A stretch of DNA of 46,801 nt, from positions 1 through 46,801 of the forward strand of contig CAINNJ010000030.1 in assembly GCA_903851195.1 (NCBI GenBank). The letters are read 5' to 3'. The translations under genes were made by a program, and so were the position numbers. Shown here in pieces: positions 4,772 to 17,572 of the stretch; position 1 is the first letter of the stretch; every line of letters starts with the position of its first letter. Source of the stretch: an uncultured Acidobacteriia bacterium. GTDB taxonomy: Bacteria > Acidobacteriota > Terriglobia > Bryobacterales > Bryobacteraceae. The notes under the pieces were generated by a model, which saw nothing but the letters and a program-made list of their open reading frames with translations, made no database searches and had not been told where the DNA came from.

Positions 4772-6534
<1,763 letters not shown>

Positions 6535-6538
<4 letters not shown>

Positions 6539-7344
6539 GGCAGGCCCACGCGGAAGAAGTCCTGCGCGCCGGCGGCGTGTCCGGCGAATGGAAGTCCGAA
6601 GTGCGCGAACAAAGGCGCGCACGCCGCTGTCGCGGGGTCGGACTCACAGGCCCCGCCACGCTCCACATCGGAATCGCGCAGGAGGGCACCCAGATCCGCC
6701 TGCACCACACTCCGGCCCGGCTCGAAGTCCTTCAGTTCCACTTCCGCGCGGTTGGGCGACACGCACTTTGCCGGCGGACTGTTCGGCGCATCCGGGGTGC
6801 AGCCCGTGCTGCCCAGATGGATGGAAAATGCGCGGGTTGCGGTCGCCAGTTCGATCCGGGCAAATCGCCGCCCCGCATTCCACACCCAGCCCATCGCCGT
6901 GAGATTGAGGGGAGACGGCATCGCCATCAGATCCGAGTGATTCTTCGCGAATGGCACGCCCAGCGTGAAGCGCAGTCCCCGATAGACATGCCCCGCGGGA
7001 ACCGTCCCGGTCACCACGCGGTTCGTCTCCGGCGACCCGTTCCTGCAACCTGCGCTGCCGTCTTCGAAATCGAGCAGCGCCACGTCGTCCAGCACCCATT
7101 TGCCGTCCTGCGCGAGGTCAACGGGCCACTCTTTCCCGGCTTCGTCCAGCAGGCGAACGTTGTGGATGTAAAACCGGAAGTCACGCGGCGTGATCACGGA
7201 TTTCGAAAGCCCCACGCCGGCGTATTTCCGCCCGCAGGCCAGTTCCTCCGAACCGACGACGGCGCGGAACGGAATGGAAACCGTTTCCGCCGCGTTCGCG
7301 GCCGCAGCAGCCAATAGCAGCAGAATCACGCCCGCGCTTCTCAC
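6535..7344 (-). CDS. mbnP: MbnP-like exported copper protein (metallo-mystery pair four-Cys family)
   Basis: 269 residues with signal peptide (about 1-19). It has the landmarks of the TIGR04052/MbnP family: ELACGRKY, RDFRFYIHNVRLL, DGKWVLDDVALLDFEDG, SAGCRNG, FTLGVPFAKNHSDL, PLNLTAMGWVWNAGRRFARI, HLGSTGC, and a late Cys pair (C233, C242). W153 and W155 in GWVWN are candidates for the Trp that MbnH-type enzymes turn into kynurenine; H136, H176, H248 and H256 are possible copper ligands. The start overlaps the stop of the multicopper oxidase gene as ATGA, and its own stop overlaps the MbnH-like start as GTGA. Function (periplasmic Cu(I) binding) is inferred from the family. Confidence 0.88.
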
Positions 7345-10932: not shown

Positions 10933-12666
10933 ATGAAAAATTTCTTATCCGTGACGCCGCTTGTCACCCTGCTTGCTCTCACACCCGCGTTGCTCCCTGC
11001 TCAGGCAGGCGCGAATAAGATCGGTCTGGAACGGAACGGTGTGGATCCCGCCGACGCCAACAAACCGCTCGGTGACCAGTGGATCACCTACTCCGGCGAT
11101 TACAGCGGCAAACGCTTCAGTTCGCTCAAACAGGTGAACGCGAATACGGTCAAACATCTCAGCCTCGAATGGCTGCAGCCCAACATCACCACTGCCTGCG
11201 GACCCACCGGCACGGCTCCGGCCGGTCCTGGCGGGGCTTTCGGCGGCGGATTTGGCGGCGGCGGTGGCGGGGCGGCGGCGCCCATTATTATCGGCGGCCT
11301 CGGCACTGGTGAAGCGAACAACTGCGGCCCGGCGCGCCTTGGCGGCGGCATTCTGTTTGTCGACGGCATCATCTACGCCTCATCGCCCGATAATGTCTGG
11401 GCCATCGACGCCCGCGACGGCGCGATCCTTTGGCATTACTACTGGAAGACCCGCGGCGGCACGAGCCTCGCCACGCGCGGCCTGGGCATGTGGCACAACC
11501 GCATCTACTTCGAACTGCATGACGACTGGATGGTCTGCCTGGACGCCAAGACCGGCAAGGAAGTGTGGAAGAAGGAAATCTCCAGCTTCGACGCGCAGTA
11601 CTTCTCGTCGAACGCGCCCATGGTGCTCGGCAACCACATCATCGCCGGCACGGGCAATGACATGGACGCGCCCGGCTTTATTAAGTCGTATGACCCGGAA
11701 ACCGGCGAACTGCAGTGGACGTTCTTCACCACGCCGCAGAAGAAGGGCGACCCGGGCCTGGACACCTGGGCCAGCCTTGATGCCGCGAAACACGGCGGCG
11801 CGATGACGTGGATCCCCGGCGCTTACGACCCCGAAACGCACCTCTATATTTTCGGCACCGGCAACCCCACGCCCGGTTACACGGTCGGCCGCGGGGAAGG
11901 CGACAATTTGTATACGTGCTCGCTGGTGGCCGTCAACGTCGATACCGGCAAGATGGCCTGGTATTACCAGACATCCCCGCACGACACCCACGACTGGGAT
12001 TCCACGGAGACGCCCGCGCTCGCCGACATGAATTTTAACGGCAAGATGCGCAAGCTCGTCCTCACGGGCACGCGTAACGGCTACTTCTTCGTGCTGGACC
12101 GCGTCACCGGCGAACACCTGGTCACGAGCAAGTTCGGCGTGGTGAACAACTGGGCGCAGGGTCTCGACGCGAAAGGCCAGCCGAAGCGCAATCCCGCCAA
12201 GGACGCGACGATTGCCGGGTCGCTGGTCAACAACGACGTGACCAATTACTGGCCGCCTACGTTCTCGCCGGACACCGGTCTGTTCTACATCCAGGAAAAT
12301 AACAGCCTGCGGATCAGCTATCTGCTCGACACCGACCCCCGCGGTTCCATGGGTCTGGGCGGCATCGGCGGCGGCGCGAGTCTGTCTTATGGGTCGTTCA
12401 TCGATGCCATCGATTACAAGACCGGAAAGACGGTTTGGCGTCATGAACTGAACGGCACCGGCCCGGGCCTGCTCTCCACCGCCGGAGGCGTGGTGTTCGG
12501 CAGCGACGGCCCGAATCTTCTGGCACTCGATGCAACCACCGGCAAAGCGCTCTGGCATTCGCAGATCGGCGCGCTCTCCGCACCGCCGGAAACGTTCATG
12601 CTGGACGGCAAACAACACGTGCTGGCGGCTACCAGCGGGTCGTTGTTCATGTTTGTGCTGAATTAA
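10933..12666 (+). CDS. PQQ-dependent dehydrogenase, quinoprotein alcohol dehydrogenase-like propeller
   Basis: 577 residues with signal peptide (1-22; ATG 10933 follows AGGAGAAACACGACG). The eight-bladed propeller shows the family strings DQWITYSGDYSGKRFSSLKQ, GHL-type Trp-docking repeats (VWAIDARDGAILWHY, GELQWTF, GKTVWRHEL, GKALWHSQ), SPHDTHDWDSTETPAL and TRNGYFFVLDRVTGE. A glycine-rich insert (about 95-115) is unusual. No heme domain is present, so electrons should pass to the cytochrome encoded just before. Substrate (alcohol or sugar) cannot be assigned. It probably forms a two-gene operon with the cytochrome gene. Confidence 0.88.
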   Translation: MKNFLSVTPLVTLLALTPALLPAQAGANKIGLERNGVDPADANKPLGDQWITYSGDYSGKRFSSLKQVNANTVKHLSLEWLQPNITTACGPTGTAPAGPGGAFGGGFGGGGGGAAAPIIIGGLGTGEANNCGPARLGGGILFVDGIIYASSPDNVWAIDARDGAILWHYYWKTRGGTSLATRGLGMWHNRIYFELHDDWMVCLDAKTGKEVWKKEISSFDAQYFSSNAPMVLGNHIIAGTGNDMDAPGFIKSYDPETGELQWTFFTTPQKKGDPGLDTWASLDAAKHGGAMTWIPGAYDPETHLYIFGTGNPTPGYTVGRGEGDNLYTCSLVAVNVDTGKMAWYYQTSPHDTHDWDSTETPALADMNFNGKMRKLVLTGTRNGYFFVLDRVTGEHLVTSKFGVVNNWAQGLDAKGQPKRNPAKDATIAGSLVNNDVTNYWPPTFSPDTGLFYIQENNSLRISYLLDTDPRGSMGLGGIGGGASLSYGSFIDAIDYKTGKTVWRHELNGTGPGLLSTAGGVVFGSDGPNLLALDATTGKALWHSQIGALSAPPETFMLDGKQHVLAATSGSLFMFVLN

Positions 12667-12718
12667 GCCTGGGCCCATCGAGGATGGCGCGCAGGAATTC
12701 AACGCGTGTCAACCGTGC

Positions 12719-12744
12719 GGGGGAGGCATCAGCTTGCCTCCTCC
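12719..12744 (+). terminator. Hairpin after the PQQ dehydrogenase gene, possible terminator
   Basis: A ten-base stem GGGGGAGGCA / TGCCTCCTCC with a six-base loop (one G-T pair). No T run follows, so it may be a weak terminator or a mRNA-end hairpin between two convergent operons. A second perfect seven-base hairpin (CTATGTC-ATCC-GACATAG, 12783-12800) spans the stop codon of the convergent gene. Confidence 0.45.
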
Positions 12745-12787
12745 GGTCACTCTAAAAACGGTTAACGGTCACTCGGATATGTCTATG

Positions 12788-13312
12788 TCATCCGACATAG
12801 CGGAGCGTGGGTCTTAGTTCGGGAAGTTCCTCGATTGCGGCATCTTCTTCTTGTACGGGACCCGCCCAGGAAAGTTTTTGAGCTTTGGTCATTCCGAGTT
12901 CCTGCATAACTTCGCCCAGACGACCTGGATCCGAACTCAAGTCTTGAGCGAACATTACCCTCCACTCGGTGCTCAGGTTTTCCTCGGCAACCCATTCATT
13001 AAAGGTCCTGATCAAACCCTGGACCTCCGGAGCGATTCCTTCTCGCCATTGCCGCGAATCCACCGTGATCTCCTTCACGCTGATGCTGTGTATCGACCAA
13101 TCTATGGAAAGTCTTATTCCAACCATAGCCTCGCCTGATGAGTTCATGCCATAAACCTGCACGCTCTTAACGTATTGCTTGCGGATACCCAGCAGGATGC
13201 GATTAACCACGTCGTCGTCGGCGCCTGTAGTACGGCGCAGCAAGCGATCAATGTTCAGGCTCATCAGGCGCAAGCGCGTATGCGTTTCTGAATTAGTGCC
13301 CGTGCGAGCCAA
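12788..13312 (-). CDS. Unknown partner of the Rubisco-activase-like ATPase; possible HORMA-like protein
   Basis: 174 residues from a TTG start with a strong AGGAG six bases upstream, inside the end of the ATPase gene (20-base overlap). No confident family match. The order helix (TRLRLMSLNIDRLLRRTTG), helix (VVNRILLGI), then YVKSVQVYGMNSSGEAMVGI and RLSIDW loosely parallels bacterial HORMA domains (helix, TG, helix, GYL-x-V strand, SG-x turn, strand). HORMA proteins are remodelled by AAA+ ATPases of the TRIP13 type, which fits an ATPase neighbour, but the likeness is by eye and weak. The acidic tail ends in LRPTLRYVG. Lower GC than the flanks; part of an accessory operon. A structural adaptor or substrate of the ATPase is the cautious reading. 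Confidence 0.65.
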   Translation of the reverse strand: MARTGTNSETHTRLRLMSLNIDRLLRRTTGADDDVVNRILLGIRKQYVKSVQVYGMNSSGEAMVGIRLSIDWSIHSISVKEITVDSRQWREGIAPEVQGLIRTFNEWVAEENLSTEWRVMFAQDLSSDPGRLGEVMQELGMTKAQKLSWAGPVQEEDAAIEELPELRPTLRYVG

Positions 13313-14159
13313 TGGAATCTCCTAAATGATTGACCATTTGAAGTTCTGCCTCAATTCTTGCTGCGAGTTTCGAGAGGTACGAAATGTCGGCAGGAAGTCG
13401 AACGGAAAACTGCTGGTTGCGTACTACCTTTATCAGATCCTTAGGCTGGTATCCCGAAATCGCTGTCCAGATAAAGCCGTCGAGTGCGCTCGCCCTCAGG
13501 TCTGCAAAGAAAGAAGCCGGTTGTCGCCGAAACTCGTCGACGAGTCGCAAGATAGATGGCTGGTCGTACTCGGGAAAGATACTCGCCACAATTTGCGTCT
13601 TTTCTTCGATAGTTGGCTTCCACTCAAACCGCTTCATCCGCCCGGGCCGCACCAGCGGACCGTAAAGTTTAGTAAGGTCGTTCGCCGTAACTATTATTGG
13701 CACCCGAATCGTCGGCTGATTTTCGACAACCGTCGGAAAATCGGAAAGGTGGAGCAACTGAGCCAACACATTCTGGCGGTTCACCGTGTACTGCGTGAGG
13801 CTGCCCCAATCCCCCAGGGCCGCATCGATATCGTTCAGAATGAGACAGCTACCCACATCGCCGTGTTTCATGGCACGACTTGCTTCAAGGTATCGCCGCC
13901 GGATCAGACTCGACGGTTCCCCTGCGTCGGCGTTTTCCAGTTCACCGCCTGCGATGAGCCACGACCTAATCCCATAGTTCTCCAGTATTCGCTGGCAAAT
14001 GAATGTCTTGCCTTCCCCCGGAGGTCCGTGAATTCCCAAAATGAGAGGCGATTCCCAAAGACCTTGCCTGCAATAGTTTTTGGCAAGGTGAAGCCCAATC
14101 TCTTTTGCAAACCGCTCCGGAACAAATGGATTTCGTTGACGGGCCGCAGCTTCGTTCAT
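13293..14159 (-). CDS. Rubisco-activase-like (Rca-type) AAA+ ATPase
   Basis: 288 residues. The AAA+ core is complete: Walker A G45PPGEGKT52, Walker B LILND110ID, sensor-1 PIIVTAN160D, and arginines R171 and R174 in [10 protein letters not shown]. The stretches [30 protein letters not shown] and [20 protein letters not shown] follow plant and cyanobacterial Rubisco activase almost residue for residue (there [49 protein letters not shown]). There is no Rubisco gene in the window and none is expected to be served here, so the client is likely another protein. Its ATG overlaps the stop of the upstream gene (ATGA), and its end holds the ribosome binding site of the downstream gene. Not CbbX- or CbbQ-like. 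GC is visibly lower than in neighbours, suggesting transfer. Confidence 0.9.
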   Translation of the reverse strand: [288 protein letters not shown]

Positions 14160-14680
14160 ATGACAGGTAATCCGGTTCTTATTCGGGCAATCTCCTCCCG
14201 AAGTTGCCCGATGCGCCGATGGGTCGTCGCGGGTTCTGCCGTCGGGCCGTGAGAATTCAGGAAATCTCGATCCGGCGCCGAACTCAGGACGTTACCGTTT
14301 GAGGACGGGGTCTGCGGAGGGGCTGTGTTGGACTGCTGATTTGCAATTTCGAGTCTTCGGTCCGCGATAAGAAACCGGAATCTTTCAAGGCGTCTCTCGA
14401 CAGCCTCTGACGACGACTGAACGGCACGCTCATCGCCGGTTTCCCACTGAATCTCTTCGGGCACGGAGTTCGAAAACCGTTCTGCGAGCAGCCTGGTTTC
14501 AGCAAGGATTGCAGTCATAATTCGCAGACTGTCCTGTTCCCTGACCTGCTGCGAGGCCATTAAATGGTTGGCGATTGCCTCAATTTCATCCGCTGTCGCC
14601 GCGCCCGGCTTCTCAGTAACTTTTTCCGTTATTAAAGTAGAAATAACCTGACCAGCAATACCGAGTACGAAGTCAATCAT
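14156..14680 (-). CDS. Hypothetical helical protein, first gene of the ATPase operon
   Basis: 174 residues from ATG (complement of 14678-14680); a TTG four codons upstream is a possible alternative. The N-terminus (MIDFVLGIAGQVISTLITEK) is an amphipathic or membrane-touching helix. A long charged helical stretch (about 30-115) likely forms a coiled coil, followed by a Ser/Pro/Asn-rich linker and a short C-terminal helix (HRRIGQLREEIARIR). No family recognised. It overlaps the ATPase start by four bases, so the three proteins are probably made together. The layout suggests a membrane-near scaffold or sensor, but this is inference. Confidence 0.7.
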   Translation of the reverse strand: MIDFVLGIAGQVISTLITEKVTEKPGAATADEIEAIANHLMASQQVREQDSLRIMTAILAETRLLAERFSNSVPEEIQWETGDERAVQSSSEAVERRLERFRFLIADRRLEIANQQSNTAPPQTPSSNGNVLSSAPDRDFLNSHGPTAEPATTHRRIGQLREEIARIRTGLPVI

Positions 14681-14719
14681 GCACTTTCCCAAATAGTGAA
14701 GGAATCAACCTTTGAAAAA

Positions 14720-14747
14720 TGATAACCGGTATTGAGGCTCGAAGCAA
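14720..14747 (-). promoter_or_regulatory. Candidate sigma-70-type promoter for the ATPase operon
   Basis: On the minus strand TTGCTT (complement of 14742-14747), 16 bases, then TTATCA (complement of 14720-14725), about 35-40 bases before the first start codon. A moderate match only. Confidence 0.3.
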
Positions 14748-14802
14748 TAGGTTCGCATATTTTTCGAATCGGGCCGCAATAGCGGGAAAGTTGGCCCTCA
14801 AT

Positions 14803-15168
14803 ATGCTTAAAAAAATTAAAACACGGGCTCACACCTCACACTACCCCATGGCCCACCTTCGACAACCGTCAGCCAACCACCTTCCAAGAGGCGGAGGTAC
14901 CAATTATCGGACTTTTCACGAACGGGACGTAATATGCTGCCCGTATCGCCTCGCCCACGCTCAACAGCTCCGGTTGCACAATAGTCCTGTGCGCGGATTT
15001 CAGTCGAAGCACTGGGGTTGGTGGTACCTGTCTATCGGCGTGGGCTTTCTTTTGCTGGCGATCGTACATCAGCTGCAGGGCGCAAAGCTCGGCGCAGTGG
15101 TGCTTCGCATCATCGTCGCTATCGGTTTCGTCTTGCTCAGCTGGATGCAATTTCGCTTTGGCAGTTGA
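14803..15168 (+). CDS. Small membrane protein, hypothetical
   Basis: About 121 residues from ATG 14803; ATG 14719, ATG 14851 and GTG 14989 are other in-frame starts. The last 55 residues look real: a tryptophan-rich lead (KHWGWWY) and two membrane helices (LSIGVGFLLLAIVHQL and LGAVVLRIIVAIGFVLLSW) ending in MQFRFGS. The N-terminal part is poor in sense, so the true protein may begin near 14989 with only about 59 residues. No family recognised. It diverges from the ATPase operon. Confidence 0.45.
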   Translation: MLKKIKTRAHTSHYPMAHLRQPSANHLPRGGGTNYRTFHERDVICCPYRLAHAQQLRLHNSPVRGFQSKHWGWWYLSIGVGFLLLAIVHQLQGAKLGAVVLRIIVAIGFVLLSWMQFRFGS

Positions 15169-15255
15169 TCTTTTTCGGGGCGCGGTCGATTTCCCCCGCC
15201 CCCACTCGTCTCCTTCATGTAGGTCGAAACCGACTTACCGAAAAGGAGACTGACG

Positions 15256-15720
15256 ATGGATACGAAACCCACGCACGAACAAGCTCAGTTGCAACTTCAG
15301 GTTTTCGAACAGCGGCGCGACGATCGCCTGCGGCAGGCGCGCGACTGGTTCTTCCGGAACTACATGCCCCAGACCTTCGAGGAATCGATGAAAATCGCGG
15401 CCCCCGGCACCGAAGGCGGCACGAATTTCATGATGGTGACCGGTTACTGGGAGCAGACGTGCGCGTTGCTCAATTACGGACTGCTGCACGAGGATCTCTT
15501 CTTCGAGACCACCGGCGAATTCTTCGGCGTCTTCGAGCGCGTCCGGCCGGGCTTGCAGCAGGTCCGGGACGCGTGGAAGAACCCGCGGTTTCTGGTTCAT
15601 CTGGAAAAGGCCGCGACGCGCTTTGAAGCCTGGACGGAAGAACGCGCGCCGGGCCAGATCGCCGCGATGCGCGGCTTTATGAGCCAGATGCAGGAGCAGA
15701 GCAAAGGTAAGTCGGCGTAG
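15256..15720 (+). CDS. Conserved hypothetical helical protein
   Basis: 154 residues; ATG follows AAAAGGAGACTGACG, a strong ribosome binding site. Soluble, mostly helical, with many aromatic residues (RDWFFRNYMPQTFEE, VTGYWEQTCALLNYG, LFFETTGEFFGVFERVRPG). The arrangement resembles small DUF4760-like proteins of Acidobacteriota, but I cannot name a function. It stands alone, convergent with the DUF1080 gene, with a strong hairpin between. Confidence 0.75.
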   Translation: MDTKPTHEQAQLQLQVFEQRRDDRLRQARDWFFRNYMPQTFEESMKIAAPGTEGGTNFMMVTGYWEQTCALLNYGLLHEDLFFETTGEFFGVFERVRPGLQQVRDAWKNPRFLVHLEKAATRFEAWTEERAPGQIAAMRGFMSQMQEQSKGKSA

Positions 15721-15733
15721 GTGCCGGGGAGGT

Positions 15734-15758
15734 GCGCGGCTCCTTGGGGGAGCCGCGC
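15734..15758. terminator. Hairpin between convergent genes, likely bidirectional terminator
   Basis: Perfect ten-base stem GCGCGGCTCC / GGAGCCGCGC with a five-base loop in the 45-base gap between two convergent genes. No long T run follows on either side. Confidence 0.5.
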
Positions 15759-15765
15759 GGGTTCC

Positions 15766-16671
15766 CTATTTCGGAACCGAGATCGTGATGTTGCGGAACT
15801 TCAGGCCGCCGGTGTGGTCGCCCTGAATGTAGAACGGGCCGGGGTCGCCTTCGCGGGCGTCGAGCGCGCCGCCGGTGATACCTTCAATCTCTTTGTTGTC
15901 GATGGTCTTCACACCGTTGCGCACGATGGTCACATTGCGACCCACCAGCGTAATATCGAAGGTCTCCCACTCGCCGGGCTTGCGCGGCAACTCGACTTTC
16001 GAACCAATCCGGCCATAAATGGCGCCCATCGAGCGCTCCGGCGGCTCGGTGCCGGCCGGCTCATATTCCATTTGGACTTCATAACGACCACGCAGATAAA
16101 CGCCGCTATTCGCTTTGTCCGGGCAGTTTACTTCGAAGTGCAGGCGGAAATCGGTGAAGGTGCGCGTGGTCTTCAGATTCGCGCCGTGTTCTTCATTCAC
16201 CAGCAGGCCGTCTTTCACGATCCAGTGGCTCTTCGAGGGATCGCCGATGGGCTCCCAGCCTTCCAGATTCTTACCGTTGAATAACGCTTCGGGCTTCGAC
16301 CAACTCTTCGGCGCGGCGCGCTTCAGATCGGGCGCACGCAGGCCGGTCAGGGCCAGAGTCCTCTCGCCGCGCTTCTGCTGTCCGGTGAGTTTATCGCCTT
16401 CGGCGTCGAGATCCCAGGACATGTCGCCCTGACGGAAGCTGAGGTGATTGCCTTTCACCTGGACGTCTTTGACCTGCACGACATGGCCGCCGGTCGGCTG
16501 GAACCAGACTTCGAGAGCGTCGCCTTTTTCCGTGACGCCCAGCCAGTTGGCGCCAACGCCTCCGGGTGTGGTGGTGGTGAAATCCCAGCGGCCCGCGAAG
16601 GGGCTGGCGGCCCAGGTGAGTGCGGGGGCCAAGAGCAGCGCGGAGAATAAAGCAGTCGATCGCAATGACAT
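15766..16671 (-). CDS. Exported DUF1080 protein (3-keto-disaccharide hydrolase/lyase family)
   Basis: 301 residues, signal peptide 1-21. A lipocalin-like first part (SPFAGRWDFTTTTPGG to about 95) precedes the DUF1080 jelly-roll (about 110-300): PEALFNGKNLEGWEPIG, WIVKDGLLVN, FTDFRLHFEVNCPDKANSGV, YLRGRYEVQM, GEWETFDITLVGRNVTIVRN, PFYIQGDHTGGLKFRNITI. Family members cleave glycosides oxidised at C3. It is followed upstream (same strand, 25 bases) by a sugar isomerase/epimerase, and then a divergent Gfo/Idh/MocA dehydrogenase: the trio known from 3-keto-glycoside breakdown in Bacteroides. Role in that pathway is inferred from context. Confidence 0.88.
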   Translation of the reverse strand: MSLRSTALFSALLLAPALTWAASPFAGRWDFTTTTPGGVGANWLGVTEKGDALEVWFQPTGGHVVQVKDVQVKGNHLSFRQGDMSWDLDAEGDKLTGQQKRGERTLALTGLRAPDLKRAAPKSWSKPEALFNGKNLEGWEPIGDPSKSHWIVKDGLLVNEEHGANLKTTRTFTDFRLHFEVNCPDKANSGVYLRGRYEVQMEYEPAGTEPPERSMGAIYGRIGSKVELPRKPGEWETFDITLVGRNVTIVRNGVKTIDNKEIEGITGGALDAREGDPGPFYIQGDHTGGLKFRNITISVPK

Positions 16672-16696
16672 GACCGCAAGTCTAATACACCGGTGT

Positions 16697-17572
16697 CTAA
16701 CTGGCGAAGATTTTGTCCATCCCGGTGGCGAGGTTCTTCAGTCCTTCGGGCGAATTCGCGCCGCCCTGCTCGGCGATCCCCCAGCCGGTATAGCCGATTT
16801 CGTCCAGCGCGGCCATCACGGCGGGCCAGTCGTTGTCGCCCGTAAGGAACTCCGCCTGAAAGCCGGCGTACGGCCCCTGCTTGTCGCGTTTCGCGCGGCT
16901 GTACTCCTTAATGTGCAGCTTCACGATGCGCTTGCCGAGGACACGGATCCACTGCTCCGGAAAGCCGTAGTTCACCACGTTGCCGATGTCGAAATGCCAG
17001 CCGACGGCAGGGCTTTCGAACTCGTCCACGTAGCGCGCGGCTTCGAGCGGACTGAGCAGGAACTGGTTCCACACGTTTTCGATGGCGATCTTCACGCCGG
17101 TCTCGCGGGCCAGCGGAATCGCCTTGCGAATTTCGGCCTGCGAGCGGGTCCAGGCGTCGGAGTAAGAAACGTTCTTGTTGACCACGGCCGGCACCAGCAG
17201 GACCGACGAAGCGCCATACGCCTTCGCCTCCCGCAGCGACTGCATCAGGCCATCAAGACCGGCTTTGCGGACGGCCGGATCGGGATCCGAAAGCGGCTGC
17301 TTCCAGTGCGTGTTGCAGCAGACGCTGGCGGCCTTCAGGCCGGTGGCGGCGAAGGCATCCAGAACCTCGTTTTGCGGCATGTGGCTCATGGGCTCGATGC
17401 CTTCGAAACCCGCGTCCCTGACGGCTTTGAACTTCGCCAGAATGGGGACGTCCATCTGAATGGTGCCGTACATGATGGCCTTGTGGAGATCGCGGGTTTT
17501 CCCGAACGCGGGGGCGGCGAGAGCGGCGGTTCCGGCAAGAAGAAAGTGGCGTCGGTTCACGAGGTTCATCAT
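16697..17572 (-). CDS. Exported sugar phosphate isomerase/epimerase-like TIM barrel
   Basis: 291 residues with a Tat-type leader (NRRHFLLAGTAALAAPAFG). TIM-barrel AP-endonuclease-2 fold: AGFEGIEPMSH, KAYGASSVLLVPAV, GVKIAIENVWNQFL, VGWHFDIGN, IVKLHIKEYSR and GYTGWGIAEQGG give the metal-site Glu/Asp/His residues. Hydroxypyruvate isomerases and 3-keto-sugar hydratases or lyases share this fold. Its start is only 18 bases from the divergent start of the Gfo/Idh/MocA gene, so promoters must lie inside the coding parts or overlap fully. It probably forms an operon with the DUF1080 gene. Confidence 0.87.
   Translation of the reverse strand: MMNLVNRRHFLLAGTAALAAPAFGKTRDLHKAIMYGTIQMDVPILAKFKAVRDAGFEGIEPMSHMPQNEVLDAFAATGLKAASVCCNTHWKQPLSDPDPAVRKAGLDGLMQSLREAKAYGASSVLLVPAVVNKNVSYSDAWTRSQAEIRKAIPLARETGVKIAIENVWNQFLLSPLEAARYVDEFESPAVGWHFDIGNVVNYGFPEQWIRVLGKRIVKLHIKEYSRAKRDKQGPYAGFQAEFLTGDNDWPAVMAALDEIGYTGWGIAEQGGANSPEGLKNLATGMDKIFAS

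Follow-up and report, generated by a model that had tools for sequence, protein, structure and literature searches.

A Rubisco activase-type ATPase encoded beside a predicted HORMA-domain protein in a recurrent three-gene cassette

The window examined here is a 46,801-nucleotide stretch of DNA that makes up one entire contig (CAINNJ010000030.1) of an uncultured Acidobacteriia bacterium whose genome is 99.66% complete. Three overlapping minus-strand open reading frames (ORFs), which we call A, B, and C, fill positions 12788 to 14680 of it exactly. We propose, with modest confidence, that this cassette (the trio) encodes a self-contained HORMA switch, in which an AAA+ motor of the Rubisco activase (Rca) type, B, would take the place of TRIP13 in opening or resetting a HORMA protein, C, with A as a partner. 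The family of B, the predicted fold of C, the recurrent gene order, and the lack of any Rubisco match in the Streptomyces carrier are supported by computation. A preliminary description of this DNA, made from its letters alone, had given the same three-ORF layout, and we found the ORFs and their overlaps where it placed them: 4 nt (ATGA) between A and B and 20 nt between B and C. The low GC content that it remarked on was also confirmed, the cassette having 53.2% GC and the flanking 5 kb on each side 62.7%. The TTG start of C is backed by an N-terminal alignment with its homologues.

By its sequence, B belongs with green-type Rca. A phmmer search of PDB with B placed three Rca sequences at the top, with E values of 2.2e-51 (6z1d), 2.2e-50 (3t15), and 7.1e-48; we take the first two to be the Rca of Nostoc and tobacco. 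The next family, AFG2, followed at 3.2e-13. A profile of eleven trio ATPases matched Rca at 1.5e-74 and reached its first non-Rca protein at 1.4e-18. TRIP13 was absent from the best 60 of 166 PDB matches of B and from the best 60 of 246 matches of the trio profile. The Rca-type strings singled out earlier (ending in LYGPLVR) were all located in B, and the likeness they suggested lies well past chance by the first of these E values. Because the Walker A motif, both Walker B aspartates, and the R.GRM segment occur in every trio ATPase of the motif count (Table 1), which took in eleven proteins and left out one interrupted B, the protein should be an active ATPase. The arginine-finger label that Table 1 gives to the last of these segments is our assumption.

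The resemblance to green-type Rca covers the sequence of the AAA+ core, the Walker motifs, and the TQYTVN and PIIVT-ND segments. The core begins at the very start of B, and the long C-terminal extension is missing: B has 288 amino acids, whereas 21 of 27 cyanobacterial ORFs run to 413 to 478 amino acids from stop to stop, with short ones present among the cyanobacteria too (L006, L010, L011, L064, and L077, in our numbering of loci). The extension of most cyanobacterial forms is presumably of the small-subunit (SSU)-like kind. Prokaryotic Rca is without the plant N-domain, according to an excerpt of PMC9951593. Apart from the extension, B differs from green-type Rca in the company it keeps, since the cassette has no Rubisco partner and links B to a gene with a predicted HORMA fold and to a third gene.

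The preliminary description had placed the ATPase away from Rubisco and supposed that it had been re-used on another client, most simply the downstream protein. We checked three carriers of the trio for Rubisco: the window's genome, a Streptomyces (G588), and Actinomadura nitritigenes (G586). The window's genome encodes a single protein that matches PF00016 (L004), on another contig (G000:C19:137271-138110). Its best PDB match is the Rubisco-like protein 3nwr at 5.3e-129, followed by other Rubisco-like proteins at about 1e-57 to 1e-55 and by Rubiscos from 2e-55 down. Next to this gene lies a sugar-kinase-type gene (SBD_N/NBD_C), which we take to be of the four-carbon sugar kinase type, formerly DUF1537. 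The Streptomyces genome gave no Rubisco match, and A. nitritigenes gave one strong large-chain match, on a contig other than that of the trio. Co-occurrence of the trio ATPase with true Rubisco is thus not general, the three carriers having none, a Rubisco-like protein only, and a strong match.

These data bear on the idea that B is a genuine activase of Rubisco or of a Rubisco-like protein and merely lies beside two unrelated genes. Rca is indeed the closest family of B, and a Rubisco-family protein does exist in the window's genome, as does the strong large-chain match in A. nitritigenes. We nevertheless regard a genuine activase as highly improbable. One of the three carriers has no Rubisco match, and the protein of the window's genome, with its sugar-kinase-type neighbor on a different contig, is Rubisco-like by a wide margin over true Rubisco; a Rubisco for this ATPase to serve was not what we found there. 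B also directly precedes C in every locus found outside Cyanobacteria and Campylobacteraceae, and C has a predicted HORMA fold. The earlier supposition of re-use on a non-Rubisco client, most simply the downstream protein, is well supported by the predicted fold of C, HORMA proteins being classic clients of AAA+ remodellers, and by the Streptomyces carrier, and we infer rather than observe that client.

C is predicted to be a HORMA-domain protein. The hypothesis was drawn from an N-terminal motif and predates the fold search. An AlphaFold model of C, built from a 12-row alignment, reached a predicted local distance difference test score (pLDDT) of 87.2 and a predicted TM-score (pTM) of 0.82, values that apply to the window's C only. 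It has helices at residues 4-28, 33-44, 95-110, and 129-139 and strands at 48-56, 62-70, 114-121, 153-157, and 166-173. Foldseek against PDB, a check that the preliminary description had proposed, returned 380 matches, 76 of them below 0.001, the best at 6.4e-6 with a probability of 1.00. The best 50 of the 380, each at E 2.1e-4 or better, were all Mad2, REV7 (some as polymerase zeta), HTP-1/HTP-2, or the HORMA protein of the E. coli cyclic oligonucleotide-based antiphage signaling system (CBASS) (6p8v, including 6p8v_H, and 6u7b). We assigned these chains to the HORMA class from their entry titles and from what is established about these proteins. In the BFVD viral library, the single Foldseek match below 0.001 was an Atg13-like protein, with a wide gap to the next; we take Atg13 to be a HORMA protein. 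Residues L163 and E165 of C are nearly invariant, and a Thr-rich N terminus running into the first helix was seen by eye in 9 of 12 C proteins.

Profile searches gave C no significant family match. Weak matches to RrpB (NCBIfam, 0.055), to a PHROG family (0.044), and to other profiles were judged to be chance. A PDB profile search returned only designed helical repeats (best 5.6e-5), which we attribute to generic helix similarity. Both kinds of match were set aside because the fold search pointed consistently to HORMA.

We then asked how often the genes recur, as the preliminary description had also proposed. GTDB contigs were scanned once, the query being B aligned to two Rca sequences, and the best 80 of 420 relatives were considered. 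Among these, 76 carried cyanobacterial names, 2 were from Campylobacteraceae, 1 was from Actinomadura, and 1 was from Streptomyces; the A-B-C order was present at the Actinomadura and Streptomyces loci and missing at both Campylobacteraceae loci. When genomes were sampled for B, the window's genome was the only carrier in a set of 201 related genomes and in one of 396 genomes of its phylum. The counts were 1 of 343 for the genus of the Streptomyces carrier, 4 of 65 for the Actinomadura genus, and 7 of 298 for the family of Actinomadura. In all, the B-C pair was found in 11 loci beyond the window, ten in actinobacterial genomes (G586, G588, G1371, G1329, G1341, G1551, G1494, G1626, G1554, and G1391) and one in a phage contig of IMG/VR, which held this one trio contig only. 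The phage and plasmid collections gave no match to the B and C queries.

At all 12 loci with a clear C, the window counted, B directly precedes C and a short gene occupies the place of A. The genes thus do co-occur elsewhere, with the equivalent of A partly recognized by position alone. Nearly all of these loci were reached through B. In G1391 (L100/L101), an opposite-strand transposase gene interrupts B, and the A-position gene and C remain open frames; this is the ATPase left out of the motif count. The subtypes of C are related to one another (hhalign E 1.5e-17 and 2.1e-7), the phage copy at 1.3e-4 with 54% probability. A C profile found no match in the cyanobacterial loci examined, and C was undetected in all six genomes searched in which B stands alone (two Campylobacteraceae and four cyanobacteria).

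In the mechanism that we envisage, C would close around a peptide, perhaps one in A. A ring of B, fuelled by ATP, would pull on C, probably via its N-terminal segment, and would thereby open it, reset it, or strip it from its ligand, much as TRIP13 acts on Mad2 and on the CBASS HORMA protein. A, the fast-changing part, would, to judge from its hydrophobic N terminus and helical build, most likely be bound or held by C, perhaps at the membrane side, and the output may guard against phage or other stress. TRIP13 pulls on the N terminus of Mad2. In CBASS, the HORMA protein binds the cyclase and TRIP13 takes the active complex apart, as an excerpt of PMC10419184 describes, and Nostoc Rca threads the N terminus of the Rubisco large chain into its central hole, as described in the excerpt of PMC9951593. 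By analogy, Rca and TRIP13 appear to work in a common way, each as an AAA+ ring that pulls on its client. From this common way of working, together with the Thr-rich N-terminal handle of most C proteins, we infer that the cassette is most likely an ATP-driven HORMA reset system.

Several points weigh against this mechanism; those on gene A come first, and those on C follow. The AlphaFold model of A has low confidence (pLDDT 62.5) and is all helical (residues 2-22, 30-72, 84-117, and 151-169), with a loose linker. The top hydrophobic 19-residue stretch is N-terminal in 10 of 11 A proteins (score 0.95 to 2.51) and at residue 58 in the phage copy, and it is weak (Kyte-Doolittle below 1.8) except in L093, L096, and L097. 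No closure motif was identified in A. Homology within A is firm among L007, L009, L091, and L092 (the Actinomadura/Streptomyces set), fair for L096 (5e-7), and weak for L099 (4e-4); for L098 (0.15), L102 (0.2), L093 (0.077), and L097 (0.13), homology to that set was not demonstrable. The window's A matched seven actinobacterial A proteins at hhalign E 2.5e-6 and the four surest of them only at 4.6e-4. A separate A type comprises L093, L097, and L101: one stretch is common to L093 and L097 (5e-7), and L101 is a clear relative of L097, at 50% identity (2e-45). To judge from these comparisons, "A" is in several loci a name for position, size, and build rather than for a demonstrated family. The proposal that A forms one conserved family was thus only partly upheld, four loci being without demonstrable homology, and because of this partial conservation we lowered our confidence in the HORMA switch slightly, from fairly good to the modest level given above.

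The behavior of A also bears on a different division of labor, in which A, not C, would be what B works on, and C would be the adaptor that delivers it, in a way comparable to p31comet with TRIP13. p31comet is a HORMA adaptor, and HORMA proteins serve as adaptors as well as clients; the 4-nt overlap of A and B in the window would suit such a role. Yet no test result favors an adaptor role over C as the client, and the sequence of A changes far more rapidly than those of B and C; we consider this arrangement unlikely.

For C, the TM-scores by query length against HORMA structures are moderate (0.42 to 0.56, with root mean square deviations of 5.2 to 9.6), and the Pfam HORMA models, including bacHORMA_1 (PF18138), were unmatched by the 12 C proteins at E values up to 5, a range in which the filters drop most matches above 0.1. 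The Thr-rich start is missing in the C proteins of L093, L097, and L100. When 396 Actinomycetota were searched starting from C, nothing turned up beyond the known Streptomyces and a single weak match. The moderate scores and the lack of a sequence-level HORMA match would fit a C that is not a true HORMA protein and that owes its fold match to generic alpha/beta similarity. Such an explanation has to contend with a best 50 of PDB matches that are HORMA entries of several subfamilies, all within the E value limit given above, and with an independent library whose sole match below 0.001 is the Atg13-like protein; we think it very unlikely. The weak match of the C-first search (L088, in G668; 8.6e-4, 28% identity over 75 residues) lies in a 420-amino-acid ORF and was unrecovered by a C profile at E up to 1.

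Table 1. Positions in the window of the cassette genes and of the segments discussed in the text
Feature	Position	Strand	Remarks
Gene A	14156..14680	-	174 aa; modelled with low confidence as a hydrophobic helix at the N terminus, long helices, a flexible linker, and a short helix at the C terminus
Gene B	13293..14159	-	288 aa; Rubisco activase-type AAA+ ATPase
Gene C	12788..13312	-	174 aa, TTG start; predicted HORMA-domain protein
Walker A of B, GPPGEGKT, residues 45-52	14004..14027	-	pattern in 11/11 trio ATPases
Walker B region of B, LILNDID, residues 106-112	13824..13844	-	both Asp kept in 11/11
RPGRM of B, residues 171-175	13635..13649	-	probable arginine-finger segment; R.GRM in 11/11
Thr-rich N terminus of C with its first helix, residues 1-28	13229..13312	-	putative handle by which the pore of B would grip C
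C-terminal strands of C, residues 153-173	12794..12856	-	putative HORMA safety-belt position, from the predicted fold

The proposed HORMA switch can be compared with several known systems. Like the HORMA-TRIP13 module of type III CBASS (E. coli MS115-1, 6p8v/6u7b), the cassette encodes a predicted bacterial HORMA protein beside an AAA+ remodeller. Unlike that module, it has an Rca-type B, no CD-NTase or known effector that we could find, a new third gene, and a C without a Pfam match. It shares with the eukaryotic Mad2/REV7/HORMAD and TRIP13/Pch2 systems the predicted fold of C and the adjoining AAA+ motor, whereas B is of the Rca family and has no separate N-terminal domain before its AAA core. 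TRIP13 has such a domain, according to an excerpt of PMC4439613. We also observed solo Rca-like ATPases in two Campylobacteraceae metagenome-assembled genomes (L005:1018-1986 and L008:5977-6864). Their Rca-like cores are 43% and 42% identical to B, and their genomes gave no Rubisco large-chain match. Unlike the trio, they have no A or C nearby, and C was undetected in those genomes, which, at only 1.2 and 1.4 Mb, may not be complete. No report linking Rca to HORMA proteins was among the papers listed from the PMC literature searched, a scope outside which most subscription papers fall, and neither Rubisco nor activase occurs in the excerpt of a conflict-system paper that treats HORMA and TRIP13 (PMC7159879).

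The preliminary description had suggested a transferred accessory system, perhaps for defense. The first part was supported: comparison of the loci favors the trio as a mobile accessory system, given its patchy distribution, its base composition, and its settings. The trio was poorer in GC than the DNA on either side of it in 10 of the 11 loci measured, by at least 7 points in six and by 1.7 to 3.7 points in four; L124 was the exception. In the phage contig (L102), the trio lies on the opposite strand, with terminase and portal genes on one side and head-completion and terminase genes on the other, and has 40% GC in a 58% background. In L122, a large serine recombinase and a pSAM2-type replication initiator lie about 3 to 7 kb from the trio. 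Two different terminase large subunits flank the trio of L102, as if two phage modules had been joined or the trio had split one. Among the matches listed for positions 11000-17570 of the window against 19 genomes of the genus (its own included), none was an empty insertion site; in G009 and G018, the flanks lay on separate contigs. Repeats around the cassette were short or imperfect only, and convincing element ends were not found.

For the defense question, we scanned 46 chosen neighbors from nine trio loci. The first 25 of 62 Pfam families among them were largely metabolic, transport, and regulatory. PADLOC gave 25 families with one member each, of which PDC-M05A (4.6e-46) and PbeA (1.4e-22) were the strongest. 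No CD-NTase model was among these 25 families, nor did any of 10 ORFs in the window match one. Several copies of the trio adjoin housekeeping genes (rpe, msrA, and riboflavin synthesis).

On these data, the trio might be an anti-phage abortive system, in which A would be a membrane effector checked or triggered by a complex of C, the HORMA protein, and B would set the threshold. We entertain this because of the patchiness, the copies in a phage and near an element, and the HORMA-AAA+ precedent in CBASS, and the lowered GC, the single neighbors that match candidate defense families, and the fast-changing A agree with it. Against it, PADLOC models matched neither B nor any of the 12 C proteins, the CD-NTase is missing from neighbor families that were each matched by one member only, several copies sit beside the housekeeping genes just named, and A lacks a recognised effector fold. 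We therefore hold a role in phage defense to be a tentative possibility. Separately, the window encodes a CAP12/Pycsar-type TIR protein at 669-2093 on the plus strand (PF10137, 1.3e-17; PADLOC PDC-S35, 2.9e-13), a candidate defense effector about 10.7 kb from the trio, and a DUF4760 protein at 15256-15720, also on the plus strand, adjoins the cassette.

Phylogenies of the ATPases separated the cyanobacterial Rca proteins from the trio and Campylobacter ATPases. The cyanobacterial proteins formed one clade in both trees (support 100/100 and 99/100). In the outgroup-rooted tree, in which branches are long, this clade fell inside a grade of trio ATPases. Constraining the tree to a joint group of trio and Campylobacter ATPases, or to a group of the trio only, gave topologies that the approximately unbiased test did not reject (p-AU 0.48 and 0.46). 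Long-branch warnings apply to both phylogenies. The short cyanobacterial Rca-like proteins without the long extension (L006:2101-3051 and the L010 match at 6001-6708) formed a sister branch to the other cyanobacterial sequences.

According to an excerpt of a review (PMC5437159), the history of the activases could not be traced because characterised close relatives were lacking. The HORMA-linked cassette is a lead toward a close bacterial relative of Rca with a plausible and testable client, and it suggests a job for the Rca motor family without Rubisco, perhaps one that predates photosynthesis. As a speculation that we put forward tentatively, the Rca family may at root consist of HORMA-remodelling or HORMA-associated ATPases of bacterial accessory systems. 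Photosynthetic Rca would then have branched off when cyanobacteria recruited a motor that was already pulling on the N terminus of a switchable client, and the trio would represent both a novel class of HORMA switch and a present-day relative of the pre-Rubisco state. The cassette also suggests that a HORMA-fold protein can be coupled to an AAA+ family distinct from TRIP13; if so, HORMA remodelling would be convergent, and the set of bacterial HORMA switches would be wider. The role of Rca before Rubisco thereby becomes testable.

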